Assembly: GCA_020054035.1 (NCBI GenBank) | Contig: JAGVLY010000026.1 | Coordinates: 1 to 36,884, forward strand | Direction: 5' to 3' | From: Bacteroidia bacterium | Lineage (GTDB): Bacteria; Bacteroidota; Bacteroidia; SXHM01 | DNA length: 36,884 nt | In this document: piece by piece, positions 10,213-20,811 of the stretch | How the letters are laid out: the number at the start of each line of letters is the position of its first letter | How positions within the stretch are numbered: the first letter of the stretch is position 1 | Translations under genes and position numbers: made by a program | The notes under the pieces: generated by a model | Told to the model about the DNA's origin: nothing | Database searches by the model: none | What the model saw: the letters and a program-made list of their open reading frames with translations, nothing else

Positions 10213-13200
10213 TTATGCTGATTCTTTAACGTTTCTCACTTTGGTCTGGTAATATACATTCGGCTGTGTTCCTACTTCTTCAAGAAGGTTGTAGCTTCTG
10301 TCATCTTTAGAAAGTTTGCTTACCAGTGTTGTTTCGTCATTCAGGTCACCAAATGTGATGGCGTGTGTTGGACATGCTGAAGCGCAGGCTGTTTGAATAT
10401 CACCGTCTTTAATTTTTCTGCCTTCTTTTTTAGCAGTCAGTTTTCCTGCCTGAATTTGCTGAACGCAAAGTGAGCATTTTTCCATAACCCCTCTTGAACG
10501 TACTACTACATCAGGATTAAGAACCATTTTGCCCAAGTCATCATTCATGTTGAAATCAAACTGCTCGTTGTCTGAATATTTAAACCAGTTAAATCTTCTT
10601 ACTTTATATGGGCAGTTGTTTGCGCAATAACGTGTTCCGATGCAACGGTTGTAAGCCATCATATTCAAACCTTCCAAACTGTGTGTTGTAGCAGCAACAG
10701 GGCAAACCGTTTCGCAAGGTGCGTGGTTGCAATGCTGACACATCAACGGCTGGAATAAAACCGTAGGATTTTCAGAAGCTGCTTCCATCTCTGTGAATTT
10801 GTCAATTGCATTTAACCCTTCTGCATCAGCAACTTCCTGATTCATATCGCTGCTGTAGTAGCGGTCAATACGCAGCCAGTGCATTTCACGGCTTCTGCGT
10901 ACTTCATCTTTACCTACAACGGCAACGTTATTTTCAGATGTACAACTTGTAACACAAGCTCCGCAACCGATACAAGAGTTCAAATCAATAGACAATCCCC
11001 ACAAGTGACCTAATTGAAGATCGTGGTCGCGCCACAGATTGATATCTTTAACAGGTTGTTTCCCGTGGTTAGTAGTCTGTAATTTCAACACCGGATTTCC
11101 TGATTTAGGATCTTTCAGGTATTCAGTAAGTGTTGTTTCTTTAACAATTGCTTCTCTGCCCATCAACGTGTGGTGAGTTTGAGTAGCAGCAATCTGATAT
11201 TTTTCGCCTGTACCTTTTACGGTTACATCGTAAGCAGCATAAGTTGCATTTCCGTCAACAACAGAAACAAACTGATATGCGTTTGCTCCGATGCCGTCAG
11301 CAGTTTTTCCTGCTGCTGTTCTTCCATAACCTAAAGCCAGACCAACAGTTCCGTATTTCTGACCGGGCTGTGGGAATGCAGGTGCTTTTATAGTTACTCC
11401 GTTTACGGTAACTTCAACTACATCGGCATTGTCATCACCTCTTTCCAAACGGCTCAGATTAAGTTCTGCCATTTGTTTTGGTGACATGGTAACATAGTTA
11501 TCCCATGTTACTTTTGAAATTGGATCAGGTAACTCCTGCAACCAAGGGTTGTTTGCCTGTGAGCCATCTCCCAAACCTGTTTTTATATAAACCTGTAATT
11601 CTGTAGCACCTGCGGTTACACCTTTTCTGACTGCCGCAGCAGCTGAAGAAATATCAGTTGCAGGAGCAGTTGTTTCTGTAGTTGCAGCAATGGCAGCAAC
11701 TTTAACCGGTTCTGCAGCAACCTGTGCTACAGGAACTGAATAAAAACCATCATGCAGACTTACTTCCCATGAAGCGCCTGTTGTAGTTTGCCAGTTTGCT
11801 TTTAAATAATCATGGTAAGAAGTTTCAATTCCTGCCCAAACCAATAAGCTCTCCTGCGCCTGACGTGTGTCAAACAATGGAGAGATAGTAGGCTGCCCTA
11901 AGCTGTATTGTCCTTTTTTAGGATTTGCATCGTTCCATGATTCCAAATAATGGTTATCAGGACAAACGTAATCTACTAATGAAGCAGTTTCATCTTCGCG
12001 GTCAGCAAAAGATATTTTCAGTTTTACTTTTTCAAGTGCTGAAACAAATGCTGAACCGTAAGTATATGCCGGGTTTACACCATATAATATAACTGCATCC
12101 ACTGAACCACTTGCCATTTCAGCAACCAAAGCAGCTACTTTAGCATCGTCACCTTGTTTCAGATAAACAGGAGTTGCAGTGTCAATCGTGTTTCCGTAGT
12201 TGCCCAATAATTCGTTGATAGCATTTACTACTACCTGAACGTTGGTATCGTTGCTTCCGCATACTACCAGACTTCCTTTTGCAGCTAATAATTCAGTTGC
12301 AGCAGCCTGTAATTTTTCTTTGTACTCATCAGCAATGCCTGCTTCATAAGTAGCAGCACCTTTTGCTTTTGCTATAATATTATAGAGTGCTAAAACAGCT
12401 AATCCTTGTTCAGATGGTTTGATGGCAACACGTACATCCGCATTTGAACCTGTAACCGAAAGGGTGGTTTCAAACTGGAAGTGACGCGACATTTTTCCGT
12501 TTTTCGGATTTCTTGTTTGTCCGTATTGTCCTGCATATTCAACAGAAGCAAGCCAGTTAACCAGGAAATCAGCGCCAAAACTTACAATCACTTCAGCTTT
12601 TTCAAAATGATAGTCAGGAATAATTGCTGTACCAAAGTTTGCCTGGTTAGCTTTTAAAATTCCTGAGTAAGAAACTGCATCGTATGTAACCTGCTCAGTT
12701 CCGGGATATTTTGCGGCAAAATCAGCAATTGCTTTTTTAGTAGTTGGGCTGATAATAGAATTGCTCAAAATTCTGATTTTTCCGCTTTTTGCAGCAATAG
12801 CTTCTAATTGTGATTTGATGGCTTTATCAACCTCTGCCCATGTTGCGGCAGTTTGCTTTGCCAATGGGTTTTTCAGTCTTGCAGAGTCATATAAAGAAAG
12901 AACCGATGAGTTGATACGTGCATTAACTGCTCCTTTTGTAACAGGCGAAAGTTTGTTTCCTTCTATTTTAATAGGACGGCCTTCACGTGTTTTAACCAGA
13001 ATGCTGGCGTAATCATTACCGTCAGCAAAGGTTGAAGCATACCAGTTGGCAATACCCGGAGTAATTTCCTCAGGTTTGTTCAGGTATGGAATAGCTTTGT
13101 TTACAGGAGTTTCGCAGGCTGCAATGGTTGCGGCTGTAACACCGAATCCAAGAAATTTCAGGAAATCCCTGCGGTTGGTTGAAGAATCGGCAAGTGCATC

Positions 13201-13317
13201 GTTGCCAAGAAACTCTACATTCGTTTGCTCAGGAAATTCGTTTTCAGCGGATTTTCTGAACTCGGGAGTGTTTTCAAGTTCCTCTATTCCTTTCCAGTAT
13301 TTTTTTACTTTGGTCAT
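10213..13317 (-). CDS. actB: Alternative complex III subunit ActB (molybdopterin-oxidoreductase-like plus Fe-S domain, TAT-type lipoprotein signal)
   Basis: 1034 aa; TNRRDFLKFLGFGVTAATIAACE; Fe-S clusters CIGCGACVTSC, CQHCNHAPCETVCP, CIGTRYCANNCP, CSLC...CASACP. Confidence 0.95.
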   Translation of the reverse strand: MTKVKKYWKGIEELENTPEFRKSAENEFPEQTNVEFLGNDALADSSTNRRDFLKFLGFGVTAATIAACETPVNKAIPYLNKPEEITPGIANWYASTFADGNDYASILVKTREGRPIKIEGNKLSPVTKGAVNARINSSVLSLYDSARLKNPLAKQTAATWAEVDKAIKSQLEAIAAKSGKIRILSNSIISPTTKKAIADFAAKYPGTEQVTYDAVSYSGILKANQANFGTAIIPDYHFEKAEVIVSFGADFLVNWLASVEYAGQYGQTRNPKNGKMSRHFQFETTLSVTGSNADVRVAIKPSEQGLAVLALYNIIAKAKGAATYEAGIADEYKEKLQAAATELLAAKGSLVVCGSNDTNVQVVVNAINELLGNYGNTIDTATPVYLKQGDDAKVAALVAEMASGSVDAVILYGVNPAYTYGSAFVSALEKVKLKISFADREDETASLVDYVCPDNHYLESWNDANPKKGQYSLGQPTISPLFDTRQAQESLLVWAGIETSYHDYLKANWQTTTGASWEVSLHDGFYSVPVAQVAAEPVKVAAIAATTETTAPATDISSAAAAVRKGVTAGATELQVYIKTGLGDGSQANNPWLQELPDPISKVTWDNYVTMSPKQMAELNLSRLERGDDNADVVEVTVNGVTIKAPAFPQPGQKYGTVGLALGYGRTAAGKTADGIGANAYQFVSVVDGNATYAAYDVTVKGTGEKYQIAATQTHHTLMGREAIVKETTLTEYLKDPKSGNPVLKLQTTNHGKQPVKDINLWRDHDLQLGHLWGLSIDLNSCIGCGACVTSCTSENNVAVVGKDEVRRSREMHWLRIDRYYSSDMNQEVADAEGLNAIDKFTEMEAASENPTVLFQPLMCQHCNHAPCETVCPVAATTHSLEGLNMMAYNRCIGTRYCANNCPYKVRRFNWFKYSDNEQFDFNMNDDLGKMVLNPDVVVRSRGVMEKCSLCVQQIQAGKLTAKKEGRKIKDGDIQTACASACPTHAITFGDLNDETTLVSKLSKDDRSYNLLEEVGTQPNVYYQTKVRNVKESA

Positions 13318-13341
13318 ATTAATATGGAGCTTATTCTATAA

Positions 13342-14604
13342 TTAGTAATGACATTTTGCGCACTCAAGTCCGCCCATTTTTTCAACGGTAATAGGCTGTC
13401 CTTTAAACTTGTCTTTGTAAGTGGCGTGTATGTAGTCGTAGTATGCGTTTCCGTTTCCTGCTGTTTGCACTTCAGTTGTGCGGTGACATTCAATACACCA
13501 GCCCATTGTTAAGGGCGAGTGTTGTTTTGCAACCGTCATGGAGTCAATAGCACCATGGCAGGTTTTACATTCCTGTTTTCCGGCAACTGTGTGTTGGCTG
13601 TGGTTGAAGTAAACGTGGTCAGGAAGGTTATGAACCTTTACCCATTTGATTGGTTTTGGATTGCTGCCGTATTTACCTGTGTTTGGATCATAATCCAACG
13701 CAGCATAAATTTTTGCAATTTCTTTTGTTCCGGTAAGTTTACCTTCCTGAACCGCTTTGTGGCAGTTCATACAAACGTTGGCAGAAGGAATGCCGGCAGT
13801 TTTTCCTTTTTCAGCACCTGAGTGACAGTAAACGCAATTGATTCCGTTTTGACCTGCATGTATCTGGTGAGAGAAAGCAATCGGTTGTTCAGGCTGATAC
13901 CCTTGATAAACACCAATCCCCATCAAAGCATCCCATCCGATTTTTGAAATCCACAAGAAACCGATGATAATACCCAAGGCAACGATGCCTTTGTTGTGCG
14001 CCATCCAATATTTTATCTCGCCCCATGCGCCCAGTTCAGCAGGAGCAGGCAAACCTTCTTTTTCGTTTACCAATGTTTGTAGTGAGCGTTTTACCCCTGA
14101 AAGAACATTGATTAAGATTAAGAACAGGATGGTAAGACCAAGTAACACATATAGCATAGTGTTACCTTTTGGTGCTTGTGCAGGTTCAGCACCCGGTGCA
14201 GTTGCTACCGGTGTAGGTGGCGCAGGTGGTCCAGCTTTTATTGTAGCAATAATAGCTTTTAGTTCCTCATCAGAAAGGTGAGCGAACGATGACATAGGAA
14301 TTTTTCCGTTGTCATTAAATACTTTGTTTGCATAAGCATCACCGCTTTTACGCAATGCTTCGTTGTCTTTAATCCATTTGTAAAGCCATTCTTCGGCAGG
14401 TTGCGGAACACGGTCAAAAACGCCTTTCAGACCAGGTCCGGTAAGCTTCTTATCGTCCAGCTTGTGGCAGGCAGAGCAGTTTTGTTTAAAAAGCTTCTCT
14501 CCGTCAACGGCTTTTGCAGTAAAAGAAAATGTTAGAAAAAAGAGAAAAAAGAGCGGAAAAAATACCTTGGTTAGTTTAGTGTGCATCAGGCATTTAACAT
14601 TCAT
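13342..14604 (-). CDS. actA: Alternative complex III subunit ActA, multiheme cytochrome c with N-terminal cytochrome c domain
   Basis: 420 aa; six CXXCH motifs: CSACH, CVYCH, CMNCH, CKTCH, CIECH, CAKCH. Confidence 0.93.
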   Translation of the reverse strand: MNVKCLMHTKLTKVFFPLFFLFFLTFSFTAKAVDGEKLFKQNCSACHKLDDKKLTGPGLKGVFDRVPQPAEEWLYKWIKDNEALRKSGDAYANKVFNDNGKIPMSSFAHLSDEELKAIIATIKAGPPAPPTPVATAPGAEPAQAPKGNTMLYVLLGLTILFLILINVLSGVKRSLQTLVNEKEGLPAPAELGAWGEIKYWMAHNKGIVALGIIIGFLWISKIGWDALMGIGVYQGYQPEQPIAFSHQIHAGQNGINCVYCHSGAEKGKTAGIPSANVCMNCHKAVQEGKLTGTKEIAKIYAALDYDPNTGKYGSNPKPIKWVKVHNLPDHVYFNHSQHTVAGKQECKTCHGAIDSMTVAKQHSPLTMGWCIECHRTTEVQTAGNGNAYYDYIHATYKDKFKGQPITVEKMGGLECAKCHY

Positions 14605-14945: not shown

Positions 14946-14976
14946 CACCCAACCTTCGGTCAATTTTGTGCGTGTA
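14946..14976 (+). promoter_or_regulatory. Candidate ECF-sigma promoter CACCCAACCTT-N14-CGTGTA upstream of the sigma factor gene
   Basis: Bipartite motif repeated with identical sequence and spacer at 18021-18051; AAC-type -35 and CGT-type -10 character; 61 nt between the motif and the ATG at 15038. Confidence 0.7.
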
Positions 14977-15037
14977 ACATGATTGCAAAGTTGTGTTTTG
15001 CCGTTTTTGTAAATTGCTGAGGTTTTCACGGGACAAG

Positions 15038-15607
15038 ATGAACATAGAACAAGAACTTTTACGGCAGTGTATTGATAAGGAACGCAAGGCGCAGTTTGCT
15101 CTGTATAAACAGCTGTATAGTTTTCTGATGAGTATTTGTGTAAGATATTGCAACAACCGCGAAGATGCCCAAAGCCTTTTGAATCTTGGGTATTTGAAAT
15201 TGCTAAATAACCTTGAAAAATACAGACAGGAAATTCCTTTCGGGCTGTGGGCAAGACGATTGATGATCAACACAATCATTGATGAATACCGCAAAAACAA
15301 AAAAGAAAAAGAGCTTTTAGAATATCACGATTTTACTGACCGCAGAGAAGACGAAACTCTGGTAGAAATAAACGATGCGGTAAAACGAATGGATGCGCAG
15401 GAAATCCAACGCCATATTGATAAACTCCCAAATGTGAGCAGAAAAGTATTTAACCTTTTTGTGGTAGATGGTTTCGGGCACAAAGAAATAGCCGAAATGT
15501 TGGGCATCACCGAAGGAACCAGCAAATGGCATTTGAACAATGCACGCGAAAAACTGAAAGCAACGATTACGGGAGTGGAAGTTTCGTTAAAAGTAAAAAC
15601 AGCATGA
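15038..15607 (+). CDS. RNA polymerase ECF-type sigma-70 family sigma factor
   Basis: Region 2-like (EDAQSLLNLGYLKLLNNLEKYRQEIPFGLWARRLMINTIIDEYRKN) and region 4 (LPNVSRKVFNLFVVDGFGHKEIAEMLGITEGTSKWHLNNAREKLK). Start moved from 14993 to MNIEQELL at 15038. Confidence 0.92.
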   Translation: MNIEQELLRQCIDKERKAQFALYKQLYSFLMSICVRYCNNREDAQSLLNLGYLKLLNNLEKYRQEIPFGLWARRLMINTIIDEYRKNKKEKELLEYHDFTDRREDETLVEINDAVKRMDAQEIQRHIDKLPNVSRKVFNLFVVDGFGHKEIAEMLGITEGTSKWHLNNAREKLKATITGVEVSLKVKTA

Positions 15608-16881
15608 GTAAAGAGAACAAAACCGAAAAAATCATCAACGAAAAACTCAACAGCCGTGAGTTTGCTTTTGATGAAAAAGCATGGGCAGGTATGGAAACCC
15701 TGCTTGATGCACAGGAAAAGAAACGCAGATTTGGGTTTTTCTGGTATTTTTCTGCTTCTATGTTTGTGGCTTTGGTAGCAGGAGCAACTTTTTATGTTAG
15801 TCAAAAATCAGATGATACGAAACAGGTTATTGCAATTGAAACAACTAAGAATACTGAAACTACTAACCTGAATATAGCAAAAGAGCAAAACGGGGCTAAA
15901 ACTTCAATTATTGAGCAAAAAGAAGTTGTTTTTGATAAAAAATCAATACAAACGGAGCAAAAATCAACTAAAAAGACGGTTTCTAAAGCTAAAAAACGTG
16001 TTTCGTCTGTGACAGACGCAACTTCCGCTGGGGTGGACGCCAGTTCCTCTGCCATAGCCGCTGTTCAGTCTGAGGTGGACGAAGCTCCCGCTGTGTTGGA
16101 TGCCAGTGCGTCTGTCATAGACGCAACTCAGTCTATTACAAACACAACTGCTGTTACTGTAGAAAAACCATCCTCAACAACAGCCGATTCTGCTTCCTTA
16201 GCCGAAACAGCTAAAAACCCGCTTACCGCACCCGGAAAAGAAACCAAAAATGCCTGGGGTGTTATGGCAGGGGTGGGGTATTGGTTTCCGTATCAAACCA
16301 CACTGGATGCTTCAACAAATGAAGGTCGTTTCGGATTTACAGGCGGCATATATTATACGAGGATATTGCATAAACGATGGGAACTTGGTTTAAGCGCAAT
16401 CTATTCAAGTCGCGGAGCATTGGACTTTGATAAAACCTTCGTTAATACAAATTATGGCTTTGGTATAGAAAGCGATAAAACAACTGTTTCGCCAAAAACA
16501 CTCCATTATCTTAACATTCCTTTTGCAATAAGATTTAATGCTACTCCGCGAAGCCATTTCTACATCGGTGCTGCTTATTATCAACTGCTGGCAACCACTT
16601 CTGAAGTTACCCGCACTATTGAAGACAGCTTTACCTCATCGGTAGTAAGTTCTGAGAAACAAACAGGCGAACACAAAGGCTTCCGCAAAAATGATGTGGC
16701 TGCTTTTATAGGTTATGAACTTACATTGTTTGAACGGATGAATCTTGGCCTGCAAGTGAGCTATGGATTTTATGACATAACAAATGATAGCTACCAGAAG
16801 CATGATGATATTATATTGAAAGGGTTCGACCGCAACATCTCTCTCCAACTCCAACTCAAATACGATTTAATCCGTCATTGA
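15604..16881 (+). CDS. Putative envelope-spanning anti-sigma protein: cytoplasmic N-terminus, one TM, long linker, C-terminal outer-membrane beta-barrel-like domain
   Basis: ATGA overlap with the sigma factor stop; MSKENKTEKIINEKLNSREFAFDEKAWAGMETLLDAQEKKRRFGFFWYFSASMFVALVAGATFYVS then Ser/Thr/Ala-rich linker, then GVMAGVGYWFPYQTT...LGLSAIYSSRG...LHYLNIPFAIRFN...LQLQLKYDLIRH. Start moved from 15526 to 15604. Confidence 0.8.
   Translation: MSKENKTEKIINEKLNSREFAFDEKAWAGMETLLDAQEKKRRFGFFWYFSASMFVALVAGATFYVSQKSDDTKQVIAIETTKNTETTNLNIAKEQNGAKTSIIEQKEVVFDKKSIQTEQKSTKKTVSKAKKRVSSVTDATSAGVDASSSAIAAVQSEVDEAPAVLDASASVIDATQSITNTTAVTVEKPSSTTADSASLAETAKNPLTAPGKETKNAWGVMAGVGYWFPYQTTLDASTNEGRFGFTGGIYYTRILHKRWELGLSAIYSSRGALDFDKTFVNTNYGFGIESDKTTVSPKTLHYLNIPFAIRFNATPRSHFYIGAAYYQLLATTSEVTRTIEDSFTSSVVSSEKQTGEHKGFRKNDVAAFIGYELTLFERMNLGLQVSYGFYDITNDSYQKHDDIILKGFDRNISLQLQLKYDLIRH
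16004..16150 (+). repeat. In-frame 21-bp tandem repeat, 7 degenerate units, encoding heptads in the anti-sigma linker
   Basis: cgtctgtgacagacgcaactt / ccgctggggtggacgccagtt / cctctgccatagccgctgttc / agtctgaggtggacgaagctc / ccgctgtgttggatgccagtg / cgtctgtcatagacgcaactc / agtctattacaaacacaactg. Confidence 0.85.
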
Positions 16882-16885
16882 TTGT

Positions 16886-18007
16886 ATGAAGCACTTCTAC
16901 ATCTTTCTCACCTTCTCACTTTCTTACCTTCTTACATCCTGCAACAAACCTGATGACCCCGATCCTATTGATACCACCCCCGTATTTTTTATCAACGGAA
17001 CGTTGGGTAATGCCGCTCTTGCCATCAGTGCCGGTGAAAATGATTACTACATGTTCTCATCCTATGAACTTGACAGTAATGATGTATTCAACTTCTCAGG
17101 AGAGTTTAAAAAAACAGATTGCAATGCTGCGGTTTGCCCCAATTCATTGCGCATCAGGTTTAATAATTACAAAGCCGATGCAGTTCCCTCTTCGGCAATT
17201 GATGCGGGAAGTTTTCCGTTAACCTATCTTCCGTTTGCTGTTCCGGGCGGTGTGCCGGCCAGCTACAGCGTAAAATTTACTCCGCTTACAACGGGCGGTC
17301 AGCCTCAAAGCTTTTTATGGGATTTTGGTGACGGAACCACTTCAACAGACGGAAGCCCCACACATATTTATGCCAACACGGGCATTTATGAAGTAGGACT
17401 TACCGTAACCTATCAGTCGGGTTGCAGCAGCAATATCAGCAACCCGCTTAACCTCGGTGTGTCAGCACTTTCGTGCGATGCAGGTTTTATTCTTTCTTCG
17501 GTGGATGTGAACACGGTAGCACTTACGTCCAACCCGGGCGGCACAGCACCCTGGACCTATGATTGGGATTTTGGTGACGGCACTCCGCACGACAATTCCG
17601 CTAATCCAACACACACCTTTGCCAACCCCGGAGTTTACCAGGTTTGCCTTACTACTACCAGCAGCGACAGTTGCACCAACACCCGCTGCCTCAACGTTGC
17701 CACCGAAAACCCGGGTGAATGCTCTATCCGTTATTCAGCTGCCACCACTACTATTTCCAATCCTTTCAATCTTTCAACAGTAGAGGTGCAGTGGACCGAT
17801 GCGGCAGGCGTGGAATACACCTCCAACAATGCAGCACAACCTACAACAAGCTATTTTAAAATAAATAACGTGGAAGATTATGAAGCTAACGAGAACGGAG
17901 ACAAAACAAAAAAGCTAAACATCAGTTTAAGTTGCACTTTATATAACGGAAGCAATTCTATACAACTTGAAAATGCATCTGCTACAATAGCGGTAGCTTA
18001 TCCATAA
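16886..18007 (+). CDS. PKD-domain lipoprotein (two PKD domains)
   Basis: 373 aa; lipobox LLTSC; FLWDFGDGTTSTDGSPTHIY and YDWDFGDGTPHDNSANPTHTF; starts 4 nt after the stop of the preceding gene. Confidence 0.85.
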   Translation: MKHFYIFLTFSLSYLLTSCNKPDDPDPIDTTPVFFINGTLGNAALAISAGENDYYMFSSYELDSNDVFNFSGEFKKTDCNAAVCPNSLRIRFNNYKADAVPSSAIDAGSFPLTYLPFAVPGGVPASYSVKFTPLTTGGQPQSFLWDFGDGTTSTDGSPTHIYANTGIYEVGLTVTYQSGCSSNISNPLNLGVSALSCDAGFILSSVDVNTVALTSNPGGTAPWTYDWDFGDGTPHDNSANPTHTFANPGVYQVCLTTTSSDSCTNTRCLNVATENPGECSIRYSAATTTISNPFNLSTVEVQWTDAAGVEYTSNNAAQPTTSYFKINNVEDYEANENGDKTKKLNISLSCTLYNGSNSIQLENASATIAVAYP

Positions 18008-18020
18008 ATAAAATAATCCG

Positions 18021-18051
18021 CACCCAACCTTTCCAAAACAACTAACGTGTA
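18021..18051 (+). promoter_or_regulatory. Candidate ECF-sigma promoter CACCCAACCTT-N14-CGTGTA upstream of the 902-aa PKD/T9SS gene
   Basis: Same 11-mer, same 14-nt spacer and same CGTGTA as at 14946-14976; 51 nt between the motif and the ATG at 18103. Confidence 0.7.
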
Positions 18052-18102: not shown

Positions 18103-20811
18103 ATGAAACAATTAATCTCTACCCTCACACTCATCTTTGCAGCAGCAATTACAAGCTTTGCCTGCGTAGGAGAATTTACCTATACCATTGAAAACAACGT
18201 GGTGGTTTTTCACGGAACATCCGACACCCCCGGAGTTACCTACCAATGGAACTTTGGCGACCAAAGCGATGCCACCGGGCAAAATGTAACGCATACCTAT
18301 TCGCTTTACCCCGAGTATTACAATGTATGTCTTACTATTACAGACGGACTTGGCTGCACCGATGAGTATTGTGCAACTGTTTTTGTTCAAACCGGGCCCC
18401 CCGCCCCTTGTGAAGGTTCATTTACCTATACTGTTGATGGTGCTACCATTGCTGTCCATGGAAGCGCAAACATAAACGAAGCTCAGTATTACTGGTTTTT
18501 CGGTGATGGCACACCCGCTGCAACCGGTCCGAATCAAACACATACTTATGACATCTATCCTGAACATTACGAAGTGTGTATGGTAATTGTAAACGGCAAC
18601 CTTGGCTGTCAGGATACTATTTGCCAAACCATTCTTGTTGAAGGCCCTTCAATCATACCTTGCGAAGCCTCTTTTACCTATACCATCACCGGCACTCAGG
18701 TTCATTTCCAAGGCGTATCAAATATTCAGGACGTAACATATAGCTGGACTTTTGGCGATGGAACACAATCAGATGATATAAATCCCGTGCATAACTATAC
18801 CCAGTCGCCTGAGCATTATGCAGTATGCTTAACTATCCATAACAGCAGCGGTTGCGAAGATCAGGTTTGCGATACTATATTAATTGAAAGCACAACACCT
18901 GAAGAATGTCATGCTTCCTTTACTTACAGCGTTAGCGGAAACGAAGTACAATTTCATGGATCATCAAACACTCCGGGCGTTCATTATACCTGGCACTTTG
19001 GCGATGGAACCACAGGTTCAGGCGAAAACCCCGTGCATAATTACACCCTTTCCCCTGAGAATTATAATGTTTGCCTTACCATCTATAATGATGCCGGCTG
19101 CGAGAATACATATTGCCACACCGTTTTTGTTGAAGGTAATGAAAACCCGAGCAATTGTGAAGCCTCTTTCACCTATACCCTTGAAGGAAACGTAGCCGTG
19201 TTCCATGGAACCTCAACTGTTCCGGGAGTTGATTATACCTGGAGCTTTGGTGACGGAAACGAAGGTACTGGCGAGAATGTAACACATACCTTCACTACAT
19301 TCCCTGCACACTATTCCGTTTGCCTTACCATCCACAATGGCGATGGTTGCGAGAATACGGTTTGTCATACCATCAATGTGCAAAGCAGCGGTGGCGGTGG
19401 CCAAGAGTGTGAAGCATCATTTACTTATACCGTTGTTGATAATTCTGTGCAATTCACAGGTCATTCAAACCAGGATAATGTAGATTATGGATGGTCATTT
19501 GGTGATGGAAGCACCGGAACAGGTCAGGCTCCAACTCACACTTATACCGTGTTCCCTGAACATTATAATGTGTGTTTATATATCTGGAACAATACCACAG
19601 GCTGCCATGATACCATTTGCCAGACTGTTTATGTGCAGCACGGTAGCGGAACTACCTGCAGCGCTGAATTTACTTATACCATTACAGGAAACGAAGTGCA
19701 CTTCACCGGACCATCCAACGCAGATGGAACACATTACGAATGGAGCTTCGGAGATGGCCACAGCAGCGATATGCACAACCCTAATTATGCTTATACTTTG
19801 TTCCCTGAGAATTATGAAGTATGCTTAACGGTTACTAATAGCGGGAACGGCTGCAGCGAAGAATCCTGCCAGACTATTTTTGTAGAACATGGAAACAGCC
19901 CCGACCTTTTTGAACTGTCGGGAATCATTTTCACCGGGCAGGATTATGCCGATGCAGGATATGTATGGCTCATACAGTATGATGTCAATACCGGAAACCT
20001 GCAAGCTGTTCAAACAGTAGAGATAGGTGCTAACGGGCATTATGTATTCAATGCTCCGGCAGGAAATTATTTTCTGAAGGCAGCTCTTTCATCTGCTTCG
20101 GCTGTTTATGCCAATTACCTGCCCACTTATTTTGAGCACGAACTGTTCTGGTATGATGCAGATGTGATCAGCCTTACTTCTAACCTGAACCGCAACATCC
20201 ACATGATAGGTGGCAATAACCCCGGGGGCCCCGGATTTATAGGTGGTCTGGTTACTGAAGGTGCCAACAAAGTTACCGGCCCCGGTGACCCTGTTGAAGG
20301 CGTGCAGGTGATGCTGCTTAATATGAATGATGAGCCGTTGCAATACACTTACAGCAATGCCTTCGGTGAATTTTCATTCAACAATGTAGCTTACGGTACT
20401 TATCAGGTGTATGGTGAAGTGTATAACCTCACCACCGTTCCTGCTATCGTTACCATTGATGGTTCAAACATGAACATAACTGATATCGGTTTGCTGATTA
20501 CTTCAAAAGAAGTAACAACAGGTGTAAACGAAGTTGCGGTTATAAACGAAACTTCGGTTGGGCAAGTATTCCCTAATCCGTTCAAAGGTGATGCAGCAGT
20601 TAATATTAGTCTTTCAAAAGAAGCACGTTTAAGCATCCGCCTCTTTGATATTGCAGGCAGACAAGTGTATGCCGACATCATGAACTTTGGCGCAGGTGTG
20701 CAACAGATTAATTTGCCTGTGTCTGCTTTGAATGCAGGAATTTACAGCCTTACTTTATCAGATGAAAAATCAAATACAATGGTTACAAGAAAATTAATGA
20801 AAACAGAATAA
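18103..20811 (+). CDS. Secreted protein with seven Cys-rich PKD-like repeats, beta-sandwich (carboxypeptidase-regulatory-like) domains and a type IX secretion C-terminal sorting domain
   Basis: 902 aa; signal MKQLISTLTLIFAAAITSFA; seven ~80-aa repeats CxxSFTYT...WxFGDG...HTY...VCLTI...GC...C; C-terminus QVFPNPFKGDAAVNISL...RLFDIAGRQVY...GIYSLTLSDEKSNTMVTRKLMK. Confidence 0.9.
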   Translation: MKQLISTLTLIFAAAITSFACVGEFTYTIENNVVVFHGTSDTPGVTYQWNFGDQSDATGQNVTHTYSLYPEYYNVCLTITDGLGCTDEYCATVFVQTGPPAPCEGSFTYTVDGATIAVHGSANINEAQYYWFFGDGTPAATGPNQTHTYDIYPEHYEVCMVIVNGNLGCQDTICQTILVEGPSIIPCEASFTYTITGTQVHFQGVSNIQDVTYSWTFGDGTQSDDINPVHNYTQSPEHYAVCLTIHNSSGCEDQVCDTILIESTTPEECHASFTYSVSGNEVQFHGSSNTPGVHYTWHFGDGTTGSGENPVHNYTLSPENYNVCLTIYNDAGCENTYCHTVFVEGNENPSNCEASFTYTLEGNVAVFHGTSTVPGVDYTWSFGDGNEGTGENVTHTFTTFPAHYSVCLTIHNGDGCENTVCHTINVQSSGGGGQECEASFTYTVVDNSVQFTGHSNQDNVDYGWSFGDGSTGTGQAPTHTYTVFPEHYNVCLYIWNNTTGCHDTICQTVYVQHGSGTTCSAEFTYTITGNEVHFTGPSNADGTHYEWSFGDGHSSDMHNPNYAYTLFPENYEVCLTVTNSGNGCSEESCQTIFVEHGNSPDLFELSGIIFTGQDYADAGYVWLIQYDVNTGNLQAVQTVEIGANGHYVFNAPAGNYFLKAALSSASAVYANYLPTYFEHELFWYDADVISLTSNLNRNIHMIGGNNPGGPGFIGGLVTEGANKVTGPGDPVEGVQVMLLNMNDEPLQYTYSNAFGEFSFNNVAYGTYQVYGEVYNLTTVPAIVTIDGSNMNITDIGLLITSKEVTTGVNEVAVINETSVGQVFPNPFKGDAAVNISLSKEARLSIRLFDIAGRQVYADIMNFGAGVQQINLPVSALNAGIYSLTLSDEKSNTMVTRKLMKTE

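Follow-up and report, generated by a model that had tools for sequence, protein, structure and literature searches.

A probable Dma-type anti-sigma factor in a Bacteroidia genome, with a conserved PKD lipoprotein as candidate partner and a predicted T9SS surface-protein target

The window, by which we mean the whole 36,884-nucleotide stretch of DNA that was analysed, carries at 15604–16881 on the + strand a gene for a protein of 425 aa (coordinates exact), the product of which is supported as a member of the Dma family of anti-sigma factors; homology, fold and gene order were computed here, and from these we infer sigma binding and location. Taken as a whole, the locus is very probably explained by a Dma-type anti-sigma factor whose sigma factor drives its own operon and a T9SS surface protein, with a PKD lipoprotein as candidate partner. 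According to PMC13088901, a Dma chain has an anti-sigma domain at its N-terminus, then a transmembrane helix, a long disordered tether and, at the C-terminus, a barrel; it is encoded beside ECF21 sigma factors. The type is familiar from Bacteroides of the gut; that source describes Dma1–3 as proteins of Bacteroides thetaiotaomicron and states that the family occurs solely among Bacteroidota, so that a member was to be expected here. A Phocaeicola anti-sigma factor with a C-terminal barrel was published in 2022 (PMC9308784) and, as such proteins appeared in print between 2022 and 2024, the architecture is not new. The class of anti-sigma factor being already known, what is distinct here is the conserved lipoprotein partner and the predicted wiring to the T9SS gene; no description of the lipoprotein partner, or of the two-promoter wiring to the T9SS protein, was found in the literature searched.

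The start of the anti-sigma gene overlaps the stop of the preceding ECF sigma gene (ATGA), a feature of the preliminary description that proved exact to the base, with the ATG at 15604–15606 and the TGA at 15605–15607. The encoded chain runs from a 43-aa N-terminal domain through one transmembrane helix and a disordered linker of ~ 145 aa to a C-terminal 8-strand barrel:

15038–15607, + strand: ECF sigma factor, 189 aa (Pfam Sigma70_r2 and r4_2; start MNIEQELL conserved)
15604–15732, + strand: residues 1–43 of the Dma-like anti-sigma factor, cytoplasmic N-terminal domain, predicted to bind sigma (AlphaFold2 helices, hhalign, W27)
15730–15801, + strand: residues 43–66, predicted inner-membrane helix, positive inside (KKRR) (hydropathy peak, AlphaFold2 helix 24–69)
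15802–16239, + strand: residues 67–212, predicted disordered periplasmic tether (pLDDT < 50 for residues 71–212; tether lengths of relatives)
16240–16878, + strand: residues 213–425, predicted 8-strand outer-membrane barrel (AlphaFold2, Foldseek, PF13568)

The sigma start at ATG 15038 is supported by the conservation of the MNIEQ start in genus members. Chance can be set aside as the source of the anti-sigma layout, because it recurs in six relatives of the same genus (56–60% identity) and, across the class, in many further families. A single-sequence whole-genome search of 100 related genomes recovered relatives in 33 of them, and their translated loci repeatedly showed an ECF sigma factor followed by a protein with a short N-terminal domain, transmembrane helix, linker and barrel. 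Mostly the same sigma/anti-sigma arrangement was seen in a second set of 80 named loci reached via the sigma factor.

Residues 1–43 of the anti-sigma factor are charged (net +1 across residues 1–46) and close with KKRR directly before a hydrophobic helix at about residues 43–66, bearing out the ~ 40-aa charged segment and positive-inside transmembrane helix proposed in the preliminary description. The hydropathy peak of this helix is present in the window protein and in full-length relatives. AlphaFold2, run with 26 relatives, placed helices at residues 3–16 and 24–69, with moderate confidence in the N-terminal fold (pLDDT about 70–75), and W27 was invariant in an alignment of anti-sigma relatives (A2).

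Reference Dma loci for profile comparison were assigned by synteny and domain layout rather than by locus tag, and DUF4943, a neighbour of Dma2, served to locate true Dma2 loci. Searching for it gave two genomes in which sigma factor, Dma and DUF4943 are followed by one more gene and one resembling nitronate monooxygenase, as in PMC13088901; this was taken as the Dma2 locus. The same two genomes carried Dma1-type pairs, one of them adjoining a NigD-like gene, plus a fused Dma3-type gene. A search of the window's genus for DUF4943 found none. In hhalign against Dma1/2, a match with P = 1e-12 was obtained for the N-terminal 75 residues (score 63.6, versus at most 19.3 in 100 column shuffles), and the part preceding the transmembrane helix, 43 residues long, reached P = 1e-8 by itself (score 38.3, versus at most 16.3 in 200 shuffles); the barrel matched Dma barrels with P = 3e-10. 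The kinship with Bacteroides Dma proteins that had been suggested in the preliminary description is thus upheld at both ends of the chain, and so is the statement that the partner genes differ (a PKD lipoprotein and a T9SS gene); the accompanying claim of a different lineage does not stand, as the organism belongs to the same class as Bacteroides.

These alignments also bear on the reading that the gene encodes no anti-sigma factor at all but a barrel protein of the outer membrane, equipped with a signal anchor, whose only tie to the sigma gene is a common operon. Such a reading draws on the database scans, in which Pfam recognised the barrel alone and NCBIfam gave no family above a cut-off. 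We regard it as very improbable, given the homology of the 43-residue segment to Dma1/2, the invariance of W27, the overlap of its start with the sigma stop and the presence of a sigma gene beside nearly all full-length anti-sigma relatives.

The C-terminal part of the Dma-like anti-sigma factor (residues 213–425) was modelled as strands with pLDDT mostly > 90, eight in number when counted from the DSSP line. The best solved Foldseek matches were OmpA and Ail, followed further down by NspA and OmpX, all of them 8-strand barrels, with target-normalised TM scores mostly of 0.51–0.63. Pfam OMP_b-brl_2 (PF13568) scored 27.7 bits over residues 237–393, just above its cut-off of 27. Structure prediction therefore agrees with the small outer-membrane-type barrel that had been read from alternating strands. 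The inter-strand loops are poorly conserved between families.

Residues 71–212 had pLDDT < 50 and consist to 54% of T/A/S/K, in agreement with the ~ 145-aa Ser/Thr/Ala/Lys linker of the preliminary description. Among 67 full-length relatives, the stretch from transmembrane helix to barrel measured 111–330 aa (median 173, none < 111), and this minimum fits a chain that would be obliged to cross the periplasm, length alone being no proof. The tether is low-complexity and fast-evolving among relatives. In two same-genus relatives (L004:1733-2041 and L007:1362-1758), it is made of in-frame 21-base (7-residue) repeats, so that its length could shift by repeat gain or loss; 21-base repeats were looked for in the tether of the window protein and none were found.

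Release of sigma by proteolysis is the usual route for membrane anti-sigma factors. One alternative to signalling along an intact chain has the tether cleaved, so that barrel and membrane-bound anti-sigma domain separate and sigma is freed by regulated intramembrane proteolysis. A disordered, low-complexity and fast-evolving tether would be protease-accessible, and this, together with the general prevalence of proteolytic release, speaks for cleavage. The minimum of 111 aa in 67 relatives, however, fits a need for reach, and both domains are kept in a single gene across the class; we consider cleavage improbable.

The sigma factor itself points to the same family. When its profile was compared with 31 Bacteroides ECF sigma factors, the four Das sigma factors ranked first to fourth at 109–125 bits, the next reaching 79. 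A tree with Bacteroides ECF sigma factors gave it no resolved place relative to Das1 and Das2. On this sequence evidence the window sigma factor is likely of ECF21 type.

Several known systems resemble parts of the locus. In cell-surface signalling of the FecI-FecR type, an outer-membrane barrel, an inner-membrane anti-sigma factor and an ECF sigma factor are likewise combined, but there the barrel, a TonB-dependent receptor, and the anti-sigma factor are two proteins. Closest are Dma1/Das1 and Dma2/Das2 of B. thetaiotaomicron, which (PMC13088901) share with the window the four-part chain, the homologous N-terminal domain and barrel, and the adjacent, closest-matching sigma factor. Their downstream genes differ: DUF4943/DUF4858 for Dma2 and a NigD-like gene at a Dma1-type locus; in the window, a PKD lipoprotein and a T9SS protein have a promoter sequence in common. 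Dma3 of B. thetaiotaomicron likewise couples sigma function to a barrel of this family, yet has its sigma domain N-terminal in one chain, whereas the window has separate genes; one of the surveyed loci (L118) looks like this fused type. The EcfO-Reo type pair of Phocaeicola vulgatus (M0N98_03760/61, PMC9308784) also has a sigma-adjacent anti-sigma factor predicted to span the periplasm and to end in a barrel. Unlike what is predicted for the window, its regulon results in longer O-antigen and raised NigD genes, and PKD/T9SS partners are not described in PMC9308784. Finally, PorXY-SigP with PorA in Porphyromonas gingivalis (PMC7712824) ties an ECF sigma circuit to a T9SS-tailed surface protein and, by analogy, is the nearest logical counterpart of a sigma circuit that includes a T9SS surface protein; it differs in its two-component activation, and a barrel anti-sigma factor is not described there.

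As a separate observation, one locus (L098:6616-7833, + strand) encodes an anti-sigma-like chain with the same N-terminal domain, transmembrane helix and linker; where the barrel would be, it has PKD domains and a type B T9SS tail (CHU_C, scoring over cut-off). This single chain might reach the surface via T9SS. A similar gene with N-terminal domain and PKD (L057:1-1143, − strand) is cut off before its end.

Downstream of the anti-sigma gene lie a conserved third gene and, behind the second of two promoter-like footprints, a gene for a secreted surface protein:

14951–14976, + strand: predicted sigma-dependent promoter AACCTT-N14-CGTGTA, 61 bp upstream of the sigma ATG (aligned footprint, genus members)
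16886–18007, + strand: PKD lipoprotein, 373 aa, conserved third gene (lipobox Cys19 invariant; PKD_4 twice; AlphaFold2 pLDDT 87)
18026–18051, + strand: second footprint copy, 51 bp before the ATG of the T9SS gene (second of two matches in the organism's own genome)
18103–20811, + strand: secreted surface protein with 7 PKD domains, CarboxypepD_reg and a T9SS type A tail, predicted sigma target (Pfam PKD_4, CarboxypepD_reg, Por_Secre_tail)

For the conserved N- and C-terminal domains of the lipoprotein, neither Pfam nor NCBIfam has a family. A profile of the whole lipoprotein was rejected as a survey probe, having matched other PKD proteins, and the survey of 295 whole genomes of the class was run with the non-PKD C-terminal domain only; the profile was built from Dma-like loci, and the search itself was blind to neighbours. 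It returned 57 strong matches, 54 of them on the same strand and ≤ 3 kb downstream of a Dma-like gene, at a distance nearly always of 817–935 bp, that is, as the next gene. Counted in reverse, the lipoprotein follows about 56 of 80 strong Dma-like genes; about 24 of the 80 lack it, having different next genes, some of them at contig ends; the class in general thus does not depend on the lipoprotein. The residues after the lipobox Cys are often K, then D/E, which may represent a putative outer-surface export signal. Another Dma-like group (L244-L247) has a shared gene pair (about 180 and 310 aa) in place of the PKD lipoprotein, so that downstream partners seem exchangeable.

The association is relevant to another explanation, in which the barrel senses its own folding or insertion, failed assembly leading to a chain that is degraded or unable to hold sigma, and in which lipoprotein and T9SS protein are mere regulon products. 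The variable inter-strand loops, the position of the lipoprotein within the sigma factor's own operon, as for a regulon product, and the envelope stress to which the Phocaeicola relative is thought to respond (PMC9308784) agree with sensing of this kind. The placement of 54 of 57 lipoproteins after Dma-like genes, however, goes beyond expectation for a general stress product, and the predicted regulon consists of a surface protein, not of envelope-repair genes, so we judge assembly sensing rather unlikely. It differs from cleavage of the tether mainly in the mode of sigma release.

The sequence AACCTT-N14-CGTGTA upstream of the sigma gene is common to genus members, its surroundings having diverged. 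It was present at both places, before the sigma gene and before the T9SS gene, in 7/7 genus members, with 12 of the 14 sites exact and one changed base in each of the other two (AACCTC at the sigma site of G004, AACCAT at the T9SS-gene site of G002). The available genome of the organism (68% complete) contained two matches, both in the window, against ~ 0.8 expected by chance, and these two have a longer run of bases, CACCCAACCTT, in common. In distant loci, a looser form was found ahead of the sigma gene in 8 of 79 (shuffle mean 1.4, maximum 5); the footprint thus does not clearly carry over to other families and is claimed within the genus only. Single matches outside the locus, near chance level, occurred at G001:C6:38446, G003:C42:22284 and G006:C23:46428, where they precede a metallo-hydrolase-like gene, a secreted repeat protein and a PKD-rich frame. 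A separate block, TGTGTTTTGCCGTTTTT, at about 14990–15010 between promoter and sigma start, is nearly unchanged in 7/7 genus members amid variable surroundings.

An ortholog of the T9SS gene adjoins the module in 7/7 genus members (one is cut by a contig end), and in other families T9SS-tailed genes lie directly before or after the sigma module in several loci. Of 25 loci that include the lipoprotein, 18 had T9SS genes within about 6 kb, versus 13 of 55 loci lacking it (Fisher P = 6e-5), a contrast that may be partly due to lineage. Phaeodactylibacter luteus and Brumimicrobium salinarum are examples of culturable relatives that carry the module. Read by eye, the divergent neighbours at 10213–14604 (− strand) look like a large protein of the iron-sulphur/molybdopterin type and a multihaem cytochrome c, resembling alternative complex III; the cytochrome gene also adjoins the module in several genus members.

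In the circuit that we favour, residues 1–43 of the anti-sigma factor would keep the neighbouring ECF21-like sigma factor bound at the inner membrane, a single helix would span that membrane, the ~ 145-residue disordered tether would span the periplasm and the 8-strand barrel would be seated in the outer membrane. Sigma is predicted to recognise AACCTT-N14-CGTGTA, its sites and their conservation having been computed. Once freed, it would transcribe its own operon (sigma factor, anti-sigma factor and PKD lipoprotein) and, from the second promoter copy, the T9SS-exported PKD surface protein. The lipoprotein may act as a sensory or docking partner of the barrel at the outer membrane, and a change in the outer membrane or at the cell surface would be relayed along the tether to free sigma. 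That last step, with the lipoprotein working with the barrel and the change passed along the tether, is put forward tentatively, as somewhat short of an even chance. With rather low confidence, we also propose that the lipoprotein is a dedicated partner of the barrel, a surface sensor that frees sigma and switches on the T9SS protein, in a four-gene surface-to-gene circuit that would be widespread in Bacteroidia. For Dma proteins, a surface glycan has been suggested as the signal in PMC13088901.

The module offers a candidate outer-membrane partner that is inherited with the anti-sigma factor across many families, and its predicted regulon is very small, comprising its own operon and one surface protein behind a defined promoter. 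Signal, partner and output would therefore be testable by one reporter.
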